NCBI GenBank assembly: GCA_030039755.1
Contig: JASHUY010000017.1
Coordinates: 1 to 64,000, forward strand
DNA: 64,000 nt
Reading direction: 5' to 3'
Source: Acidimicrobiales bacterium
GTDB lineage: Bacteria > Actinomycetota > Acidimicrobiia > Acidimicrobiales > RAAP-2
The position numbers were made by a program, and so were the translations under genes. The notes under the pieces are model-generated. The model ran no database searches. It was not told the origin of the DNA and saw only the letters and a program-made list of their open reading frames with translations. Below, piece after piece: positions 9,202 to 12,404 of the stretch (its first letter is position 1; the number at the start of each line of letters is the position of its first letter).

Positions 9202-10671
9202 TCACCCTTCGCTGACCGGTGCCGTCATCGGCTCGCAGGTACCGTGCGCCGGCGCGGAGGAACGGGCTCTACGGACCATCGTGGGTGCCGCGTCGACGTC
9301 GCTGACGGTGAGCGCGATCGCCGCGCCCAGGACCGCGACGATCGCCGACGCGACGAACCCGTAGCGGTAGGCGCCAAGGGCCGGCACGACGGTGGACCCC
9401 ACGTGGCGCGTCGGCCCCTCCGCCATCACGGTGGTCACGAGGGCGACGCCTACCGCACCGCCGAGCTGGCGGCACGCGTTGAACACCGCCGACGCGTCAC
9501 TCGTGCGTGTCGCGCCGATGGTCGTGAACGAAGACGCCTGGGAGACCATGAATATGTGGGACACCCCGTAGCCGAGGAACAACATGTCGAGACGGATCAA
9601 CCATTCGCTGGTCGCCGGGCCGATCTGGGTGAAGAGCACCATCGAGACCGCGATCGCGAGCAAGCCACCCGTGAGCAGTCGTCGGGGACCGAAGCGCGGG
9701 TAGAGGACCCGCGACACCACCTGTGAGCCGACCATGACCCCCAGCGCCTCCGGAAAGATCGTCAGACCGGCGCGCAGTGCGGACATGCCGAGGGCGTTCT
9801 GCAAGAAGAGGGAGACGAGGTACAAGGTCCCGAAGAATGCCATCGAGCCTGCGACCATCACGGACGTGGTCGACCTGAACAGCCGGTCGACGAACAGCGA
9901 CAAGTCGATCAGCGGATGGATTCGGCGCAGCTCGTACACGACGAAGCAGACCAAGAGGCTGCCCCCCGCCGAGACCGTCGCCACGACGTCCCCGCTCGAC
10001 CACCCTACGAGCGGCCCTTCCGAGATGCCGTACATGGCCAGTCCGAGCCCGGCACCCGAAAGAAGGAACCCGCAGACGTCGAGACGACTGATGCCGGACT
10101 GCCTGTGGTCCGAGAGGAAGACGAAGCCGAAGACCAAGGCGGCGATGCCGAAGGGGACGTTCACGTAGAAGACCCAGCGCCACGAGAGCTCGGTGGTGAA
10201 GAGGCCCCCGAGCACCGGGCCCAACGCGGGCGCCAACGCGGTCGGAGGCACCAGGATGCTCGCGGCGCGAACCCGTTGGGACGGCGGGAACACCCGGAAG
10301 AGCATCGCCAAGCCGACCGGGGTCATGAGCCCCCCACCGACCCCCTGGAGGATCCTGAACACCACGAGCTCGCCGAAGCTCGTGGACAGCCCGCAGAGCG
10401 CGGATGCGACCACGAAGACGAAGACGGCTCCGAGAAGCGTCCGCCGCCCCCCGAGACGGTCCCCCAACCAGCCGGAGATGGGGATGAACACCCCGTAGCT
10501 CACGAGGTAGCCGATCGAGACGGCGTCCACCGCGTCGGTGCTGACGTGGAAGTGACGTCCCAACGTGGGGAGTGCCAGGTTCACGATCGTGGTGTCCATG
10601 ACCGCCATGAACGTGGCGGCCACGTAGACGACCGGAACGGCCACCTTCTGGTCCAGGCTGCGCCCTCTCAT
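9202..10671 (-). CDS. DHA2-family MFS multidrug efflux transporter
   Basis: A 489-residue drug/proton antiporter with about 14 predicted membrane segments, as in EmrB/QacA. Diagnostic pieces are MDTTIVNLALPTLG in helix 1, motif A GWLGDRLGGRRTLL, and RILQGVGGGLMTPVGLAM in helix 4. It would expel lipophilic compounds through the cytoplasmic membrane. It is divergent from a MarR regulator, and the intergenic region contains a candidate operator (10777-10793), so repression by that MarR and induction by substrate are likely. Confidence 0.94.
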   Translation of the reverse strand: MRGRSLDQKVAVPVVYVAATFMAVMDTTIVNLALPTLGRHFHVSTDAVDAVSIGYLVSYGVFIPISGWLGDRLGGRRTLLGAVFVFVVASALCGLSTSFGELVVFRILQGVGGGLMTPVGLAMLFRVFPPSQRVRAASILVPPTALAPALGPVLGGLFTTELSWRWVFYVNVPFGIAALVFGFVFLSDHRQSGISRLDVCGFLLSGAGLGLAMYGISEGPLVGWSSGDVVATVSAGGSLLVCFVVYELRRIHPLIDLSLFVDRLFRSTTSVMVAGSMAFFGTLYLVSLFLQNALGMSALRAGLTIFPEALGVMVGSQVVSRVLYPRFGPRRLLTGGLLAIAVSMVLFTQIGPATSEWLIRLDMLFLGYGVSHIFMVSQASSFTTIGATRTSDASAVFNACRQLGGAVGVALVTTVMAEGPTRHVGSTVVPALGAYRYGFVASAIVAVLGAAIALTVSDVDAAPTMVRRARSSAPAHGTCEPMTAPVSEG

Positions 10672-10776
10672 CTGTCCTCACCTCGTCGCGAACAGACGAT
10701 CGTCGCGCACTTCCGGCTGCCCATCGCACGCTGCTGCTGGCAGCGGGTGGACGTCTCAGTCGTGCCACTTCTGGAT

Positions 10777-10793
10777 TGTCTAGATTATTGACA
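10777..10793. promoter_or_regulatory. Candidate MarR operator between efflux gene and marR
   Basis: TGTC and GACA form an inverted repeat separated by nine AT-rich bases (TAGATTATT). The right arm overlaps the -35 box TTGACA of the marR promoter. A site here could control both divergent genes. The arms are short, so this is suggestive only. Confidence 0.45.
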
Positions 10794-10816
10794 GTCTGCT
10801 CTTCGTAACGTACGAT
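10788..10816 (+). promoter_or_regulatory. Sigma-70-type promoter of the marR gene
   Basis: TTGACA (10788-10793), a 17-base spacer, then TACGAT (10811-10816). The -35 is perfect and the -10 matches four of six consensus bases and the actinobacterial TANNNT pattern. The predicted transcription start, seven bases further at 10823, is exactly the G of a GTG codon. Confidence 0.75.
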
Positions 10817-10822
10817 CTGGTG

Positions 10823-10888
10823 GTGCCGACAGGTGCGGTCGCCGGGATGCACGACGCGCTCGGCGAGCAGTCGTCGCCCGAGCCGTGA
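10823..10888 (+). CDS. Possible leaderless leader peptide (21 aa) before marR
   Basis: A GTG codon lies exactly at the predicted transcription start of the strong promoter at 10788-10816 and opens a 21-codon frame. Its TGA (10886-10888) overlaps the GTG start of marR (10885). The marR start has no Shine-Dalgarno of its own, so ribosomes finishing this frame could restart on marR. The peptide (VPTGAVAGMHDALGEQSSPEP) has no special composition. It may serve only to deliver ribosomes. Overlapping frames also occur by chance, hence the modest confidence. Confidence 0.45.
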   Translation: MPTGAVAGMHDALGEQSSPEP

Positions 10889-11433
10889 ACGCGCCGGCGC
10901 GGTCACGCCCGTCGGGGGACCGTCCTTGGTACGAGGACGTCCCGCTGGCGCAACTGCTGCGCGTGGCGCGCGACGTCTACCGGGACGCCGTACGGCGGGC
11001 GCTGGACAGCGCCGGGTGCGACGACATTCCGCGCAACGGCACGTTCGTGCTCTCGAGCCTGGACCGCACGACACCAGAGCCGTCGTTCAGCCCCCAGGCC
11101 GAGGTCGTCGCCTCGCTCGGGTTGAGCAAGCAGGCAGCCAGCCAGCTGATCGACACCCTCGTGCTCCGGGACTATCTCGAACGCCGCAACGACCCGGAAG
11201 ACCGCAGGCGGATGGGCGTGCGGTTGACCGATCGCGGACGTACGGCGGCGACCGCGATCCAGGGTGCGTTCGACGAGGTCGAGACGTCGATTGCGCAGCT
11301 GGTCACCGCCGATGAGCTGCACGGGTTGCGAGCGGGCCTCGCAGCCTACCGATCGATCCGTGAGCGACCCGCGTTGTCCGCAGACGACACGTTCCACACG
11401 ACCGTCGCACCCGTCGCCGGCGAGCTCCGATGA
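10885..11433 (+). CDS. MarR-family transcriptional regulator of the efflux module
   Basis: A 182-residue winged-helix protein. The HTH lies around VVASLGLSKQAASQLIDTLVLRDYLER, followed by the wing with DPEDRRRMGVRLTDRG, a classical MarR pattern. It is divergent from the DHA2 efflux pump and overlaps the downstream hydrolase by four bases (ATGA at 11430-11433), so the two are translationally coupled. It probably represses both itself and the pump through the site at 10777-10793 and releases on ligand binding. The start is the GTG overlapping the leader frame described separately. Confidence 0.9.
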   Translation: MNAPARSRPSGDRPWYEDVPLAQLLRVARDVYRDAVRRALDSAGCDDIPRNGTFVLSSLDRTTPEPSFSPQAEVVASLGLSKQAASQLIDTLVLRDYLERRNDPEDRRRMGVRLTDRGRTAATAIQGAFDEVETSIAQLVTADELHGLRAGLAAYRSIRERPALSADDTFHTTVAPVAGELR

Positions 11434-12404
11434 CCGCAGCGGGACTCGTTCACCGAGCTCGACGGGTCGTGGCGGTCGGCACGGTGGCGCTGGTGGCGGT
11501 GGGCTTTGCCGCCTGGGGCCGGCCGGGGGCAGCCGGCGCGGCCGGCGCGGCCGGCGCGAGGACCCGGTCACCGACGACGTCACCGGGCACGTCTCGAGGG
11601 ATCACCTCGGTACGGGTCCAGGTGATCCGGACCTCGGACGGAGAGGTCGCCTACCGCCGACTCGGCAAGGGCACGCCGCTGCTGCTGATCATGGGCCTCG
11701 GAGGGAGCATCGACGACTGGCAGCCCACATTCGTGAACGCGCTCGCATCCCGCTACCGGGTCATCGTGTTCAACAACGCCGGCGTCGGGCGCACCTCGGC
11801 GCTGCCCTCACCGCTCACGATCACGGCCATGGCCGACCAGACGAGCGCGTTCATCACCGCACTCGGGCTTGGGCGTGTCGACGTGCTCGGTTGGTCGATG
11901 GGGGGCATGACGGCCCAGGCGCTGACCGTCCTGCACCCTGCCCAAGTGGCCAAGCTTGTGCTGGCCGCGACCCAGGCGGGAACGGGACGTGCGCTTCCGG
12001 TGCCGGCCGCGGCCGCCGCCGACGCGGTGAGCTCGAACCCGGCCGCCGTCCTTTCCGCGCTCTTCCCGGCCAGCCAGGTGGCGGCCGAGAAGAAGTACGT
12101 CACGGGGATCTTGTCCTACCCCGGCTACTACCAGGCGCCGAGAGACCTCGTCGGCTCCCAGGAAGCCGCGGTCGAAGCCTGGCTCCGCGGCACAGACCCC
12201 TCAGGTCACCTCGTCGGCGGCATCCGGGTGCCGACCCTTGTCGCCGACGGGAGCCTCGACGCCCTGGACCCGACCGCGAACGACCGGTCGCTGGCCGCGG
12301 CCATCCGCGGTGCCCAGCTCGTCGTGTACCCCGGCGCCGGTCATGCCTTCTTGTTCCAAGACGCCACGTCGTTCGTCCGTCGGCTCGAGACGTTCCTCGG
12401 ATAG
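11430..12404 (+). CDS. Secreted alpha/beta-hydrolase
   Basis: A 324-residue alpha/beta-hydrolase. Residues 1-42 contain basic residues, a hydrophobic core (VVAVGTVALVAVGFAAW) and small residues, consistent with a signal peptide or anchor. The catalytic triad is readable: Ser156 in GWSMGG, Asp277 in DGSLDALDP and His305 in GAGHAFLF. MGLGGSIDDWQPTF supplies the oxyanion region. Coupling to marR by a 4-base overlap suggests a role with the efflux system, perhaps degrading or modifying an exported or external compound. The substrate is unknown. Confidence 0.9.
   Translation: MTAAGLVHRARRVVAVGTVALVAVGFAAWGRPGAAGAAGAAGARTRSPTTSPGTSRGITSVRVQVIRTSDGEVAYRRLGKGTPLLLIMGLGGSIDDWQPTFVNALASRYRVIVFNNAGVGRTSALPSPLTITAMADQTSAFITALGLGRVDVLGWSMGGMTAQALTVLHPAQVAKLVLAATQAGTGRALPVPAAAAADAVSSNPAAVLSALFPASQVAAEKKYVTGILSYPGYYQAPRDLVGSQEAAVEAWLRGTDPSGHLVGGIRVPTLVADGSLDALDPTANDRSLAAAIRGAQLVVYPGAGHAFLFQDATSFVRRLETFLG

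Follow-up and report, generated by a model that had tools for sequence, protein, structure and literature searches.

The marR locus

The window, by which we mean the whole 64,000-nucleotide stretch analysed here (contig C177 of a 70%-complete MAG), carries marR (10885..11433, + strand), whose 182-aa product matches MarR_2 (PF12802) in Pfam at 6.5e-10, a match that places it in the MarR winged-helix family. The start of an alpha/beta hydrolase gene (11430..12404, + strand; ORF and profile match) overlaps the marR stop, these two genes probably form one operon, and an FAD-dependent oxidoreductase also lies to the right of marR. Divergently oriented is a gene for an EmrB/DHA2-type MFS exporter that is native to the genus (9202..10671, − strand; TIGR00711, 9.3e-96) and likely to be co-regulated. 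A search for viral contigs gave none. As the MAG is 70% complete, the assembly may be collapsed or faulty at this locus.

Immediately upstream of marR lies a mini-ORF of 21 codons (10823..10888, + strand) that translates to VPTGAVAGMHDALGEQSSPEP followed by a stop, and that is probably the leaderless, internally deleted relic of a gene, MarR1, to which its two ends are homologous. Its TGA (10886-10888) overlaps the marR GTG at 10885 in a GTGA (10885..10888, + strand), and with a length within 5-50 codons and a TGA inside the RTG of the next gene it has the form of a coupled small ORF. The overlap of the marR stop with the hydrolase start (ATGA, 11430-11433) is a second one within the operon.

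A predicted leaderless promoter

The marR promoter consists of a −35 box TTGACA (10788..10793, + strand; promoter scan), a spacer of 17 and a −10 box TACGAT (10811..10816, + strand), and matches the consensus at 10/12 positions. In the two closest orthologous loci, L049 and L071, the −10 counterparts are TATGCT and TACGCT, respectively, and the −35 box stands in the same register before the MarR1 gene of L049. The marR promoter is the one promoter-like site between 9500 and 12500, where shuffled sequences give a mean of 0.1; when both strands of the 64 kb were screened for promoters that score at least 8 and are followed by an RTG at a distance of 6-8 nt, no other was found. Two adjacent GTGs follow, at 10820 and 10823, and a mechanically called ORF therefore has 22 codons; the second GTG is 7 nt past the −10 box, and its first base (10823..10823, + strand) is the predicted transcription start. 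The initial annotation had described exactly this promoter, start position and 21-codon frame with a TGA overlapping the marR GTG, and each is present in the sequence as claimed; the similar arrangements that it had seen elsewhere in the window (murT, APC transporter) were not reproduced with the threshold and RTG distance given above, since marR alone passed that screen.

Comparison with relatives supports a window transcript that would begin, without a leader, at GTG10823. In about ten homologous genes (L031-L036, L039, L042, L046 and both MarR1 genes), the start codon lies 7-8 nt past the −10 box, so that a leaderless, operator-controlled MarR start appears to be ancestral, and GTG10823 occupies the very position that homologs use as their own MarR start codon.

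We considered that the frame might never be translated, with marR read independently from GTG 10885 or from an internal start and the overlap merely incidental, given that high-GC DNA readily yields RTGA overlaps. We regard this as quite unlikely: the 20 nt preceding marR hold no Shine-Dalgarno sequence, the frame opens with an RTG at the predicted +1, where homologs place their own start, and an RTG that stands at the 5′ end of an mRNA suffices for translation in mycobacteria (PMC4633059). The GTGA overlap together with the lack of a Shine-Dalgarno sequence before marR makes it plausible that marR is translated by reinitiation after the mini-ORF.

The operator and predicted autoregulation

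Overlapping the promoter is a candidate MarR operator, the inverted repeat GGATTGTC-N9-GACAGTCT (10773..10797, + strand), with imperfect arms at 10773-10780 (GGATTGTC) and 10790-10797 (GACAGTCT) that are separated by 9 nt; its core reads GATTGTC-N7-TTGAC. The right arm overlaps the −35 box (10790-10797 vs. 10788-10793), as had been proposed from the first inspection of the locus. The motif GAYWGTC-N7-WTGAC (also written GAYWGTC-N7-[ATG]TGAC) is conserved upstream of 16/38 MarR homologs; none of the 38 carries it at any other spacing from 2 to 13, and random segments from the same homolog loci contain it in 29/3,120 cases. Exact matches to the operator number three only in the 2.98 Mb MAG. The operator core also occurs just upstream of two further MarR paralogs in this genome (L080, G000:C23:1979; L085, G000:C245:57221), in one of which it overlaps the start region.

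An inverted repeat that overlaps the promoter of its own gene and is conserved in orthologs is the arrangement of an autoregulated MarR repressor. The fixed spacing of the operator and the starts 7-8 nt past the −10 box in relatives back the autoregulation that had been proposed for marR, and we regard autoregulation from a leaderless promoter as strongly supported by these comparisons; the MarR protein would repress by covering the −35 box at the predicted operator.

Intact MarR1 in the nearest orthologous loci

The closest orthologs of marR, at 77% and 70% aa identity, respectively, are found in L049 (G807, Candidatus Dormiibacterota palsa_859) and L071 (G809), two genomes of one other genus in a lineage distantly related to that of the window. 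In both loci the ortholog, MarR2, is the second gene of a tandem pair: a full-length MarR1 of 152 codons lies directly upstream (L049:5514-5972; L071:1020-1478), its stop sits 22 nt before the MarR2 ATG, and the two MarR1 proteins are 91% identical. MarR2 is likely to be the DNA binder of the pair, because it matches the Pfam helix-turn-helix and the L049 MarR1 gave no such match. The apparent loss of the helix-turn-helix from MarR1 suggests that this protein acts alongside MarR2 as a ligand sensor or dimer partner.

We found no close marR ortholog in same-genus genomes (the match in G011 is only 44% identical), wider sampling across the order and class gave no locus closer than L049 and L071, and none of the sequences sampled has MarR1 reduced to a short frame as in the window. 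The suggestion that conservation of the short frame in relatives would support it thus stood in part: the start, stop and promoter are conserved, and the frame itself is not, the relatives having full MarR1 instead, as would be expected if the frame is the residue of a gene that is intact in the nearest orthologous loci.

These comparisons also bear on whether the frame encodes a dedicated leader peptide of the attenuation or stalling type, which would sense a condition and control marR, a kind of role that has been proposed for mycobacterial leaderless small ORFs (PMC4633059). A GC-rich 24-nt palindrome does span the marR start (10884..10907, + strand), and we asked of it a hairpin that would hide this start, with the GTG mostly paired; it is no more stable than shuffles, as 32% of these and 9.6% of window 38-mers are equally stable, and this candidate was rejected. 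By eye, the palindrome is absent from L049 and L071, and it may be a product of chance. The scan found no terminator-like site at the locus, the mini-ORF peptide holds no cluster of one codon, and there is no conservation as a short peptide, because the relatives carry the full gene. With neither a terminator, a codon cluster nor a significant hairpin, an attenuator leader peptide was rejected, and we consider any dedicated leader peptide very improbable.

The mini-ORF as a probable relic of MarR1

The two ends of the mini-ORF align with the two ends of MarR1 in the proper order. At the 5′ side, GGATTGTC, TTGACAGTCTG, TACGAT and GTG align, in this order, to the MarR1 promoter and ATG; in a start-anchored, ungapped comparison with L049 MarR1 the window's site matches at 29/50 positions, the best of the window's 127,902 50-mers (next best, 25). 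The ungapped count for L071 is low (18/50) because its spacer is one base longer, and its promoter boxes are nonetheless conserved. An anchored, gapped DNA test placed the site at rank 1 (L049) and 5 (L071) of 1,083, the window's own site being counted among these. At the 3′ side, the blastn homology of MarR2 continues through the end of the mini-ORF, and the last 20 nt before the TGA match the MarR1 end at 15/20 positions in L049 and 14/20 in L071, ranking top among 4,678 TGA-ended controls for each of them.

The interior is less telling. The middle of the mini-ORF aligns to MarR1 only with gaps, and the match is unconvincing; the gapped local homology of the whole mini-ORF to MarR1 is not significant alone (105/1000 shuffles equal it), significance being confined to the anchored ends, and the protein-level test was modest (3 and 12 of 1,414). 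With both ends homologous in order and the full gene present in relatives, the mini-ORF most likely represents MarR1 after an internal deletion, with its two ends surviving; most simply, ~130 codons would have been lost from the interior, leaving the start, a few end codons and the stop in frame.

A second site in the same MAG bears on another possible origin. On contig C25 (L106, G000:C25, 1946-3830, − strand), an exact operator and TTGACA-17-TACGAT are followed 7 nt on by an ATG that opens a leaderless 8-codon frame (MPARGIRR and a stop), whose TGA overlaps, again in a GTGA, the GTG start of a gene encoding a 603-aa, PMT_2/YkcB-like membrane glycosyltransferase; this promoter is identical at 35/53 positions to that of the window and to that of L049. 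The site suggests that the glycosyltransferase is a member of the regulon and a second case of an RTGA-coupled leaderless mini-ORF, and it is a better second example than murT or the APC transporter within the window. It may also illustrate how an operator, promoter and start codon could have been copied before marR as well, with the frame that follows being a chance one and not a remnant of MarR1; the copy on C25 precedes an unrelated gene, and the central part of the window's frame has no clear MarR1 match. We find such a promoter capture unlikely for marR, though with a real chance of being correct, for the 3′ end matches the end of MarR1 in a register continuous with that of the neighbouring MarR2 homology, and does so best of 4,678 controls.

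Probable acquisition of the cassette and a model of the locus

The cassette looks acquired. Ribosomal protein bS6 of the palsa_859 genus shares only ~34-39% identity with that of the window's order, vs. 77% for MarR2 (relatives of the MAG were used for bS6, the window's incomplete MAG having given no bS6 match), and the exporter of the same-genus genome G011 stands beside a different MarR, two findings which together make the window's cassette appear foreign. The G011 exporter ortholog is 82% identical, and DNA homology ends at ~10679, just upstream of the exporter start. That locus (L087, G011:C232) pairs the exporter with a non-orthologous divergent MarR, an apparent regulator replacement. 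Adjacency of MFS and MarR genes is absent in the palsa_859 lineage, where the best MFS is 33% identical and no neighbour matches. Most likely, to judge from these comparisons, the MarR cassette was gained horizontally and took the place of the regulator that originally stood next to the EmrB-type exporter.

We therefore propose, with a probability of roughly 0.68, that the locus is a horizontally gained, self-repressing MarR cassette whose first gene was internally deleted and whose mini-ORF would serve for ribosome entry. The proposal starts from what can be read in the DNA, namely the promoter, the operator and its conservation, the overlap, the end homologies and the apparent foreign origin. 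The ancestor would have had a single operator and promoter, with a leaderless transcript from the MarR1 start codon and MarR2 22 nt behind. A deletion would then have removed ~130 MarR1 codons and kept the promoter, the operator, the start (now GTG), the last codons and the stop; the MarR2 ATG would have been lost, and the GTG inside the relic's stop (GTGA) would have become the new start. The cassette would have arrived by horizontal transfer, displacing the exporter's original regulator. Beyond this we infer the transcription start, that the relic is translated and coupled to marR, that the repressor binds and that the exporter is affected: ribosomes would load at the leaderless GTG10823 with which the transcript opens, read through the relic, terminate at 10888 and reinitiate at 10885, and MarR2 at the operator would cover the −35 box and shut off its own transcription, probably also affecting the divergent EmrB-type exporter.

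The origin of coupled leaderless small ORFs is rarely traceable, and the intact relatives provide here a before/after pair, a full MarR1-MarR2 operon and the same operon with MarR1 cut to its ends. If correct, the proposal offers a simple, testable route to such mini-ORFs, together with a regulator swap beside a drug-type exporter. We suggest more generally, and only tentatively, that the deletion of a gene or the move of a promoter creates a 5′ mini-ORF, which would arise automatically because a leaderless promoter carries its own start codon, and that the downstream gene survives via the RTGA overlap. If true, this would account for the origin of many actinobacterial leaderless coupled small ORFs, and this MAG would hold two examples controlled by a single repressor, a deletion relic (marR) and a promoter capture (the C25 glycosyltransferase).

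Comparison with known systems

In mycobacteria, leaderless small ORFs joined by an RTGA to the next gene are common and overrepresented, and the coupling is sometimes retained without conservation of the peptide (Shell et al. 2015, PMC4633059). The mini-ORF resembles these in its RTG at the predicted 5′ end, its length within 5-50 codons and its TGA inside the next RTG (PMC4633059); it differs in that it belongs to another lineage, has a start that is predicted only, has a source gene that can be named and lies under a MarR operator. CrtR of Corynebacterium glutamicum, a MarR regulator that is encoded divergently from the operon it controls, represses its own gene and is reported to be leaderless (PMC5401885), is likewise an actinobacterial, divergent MarR regulator with a leaderless start and autoregulation, the last two being predicted in our case. 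CrtR, however, itself starts the transcript and has a different operator, and the accessible portion of that report notes no upstream mini-ORF (PMC5401885). Overlapping gene pairs were strictly coupled in 13/14 tested cases (Huber et al. 2019, PMC6728339), and the mini-ORF and marR share the overlapping stop and start with them; those pairs consist of ordinary genes, whereas the upstream partner here is a probable 21-codon remnant. Our literature search found no paper in which a leaderless coupled ORF is described as the relic of a gene. The leaderless, RTGA-coupled arrangement is thus already known from mycobacteria, and what is unusual about the marR mini-ORF is that its origin can be traced.
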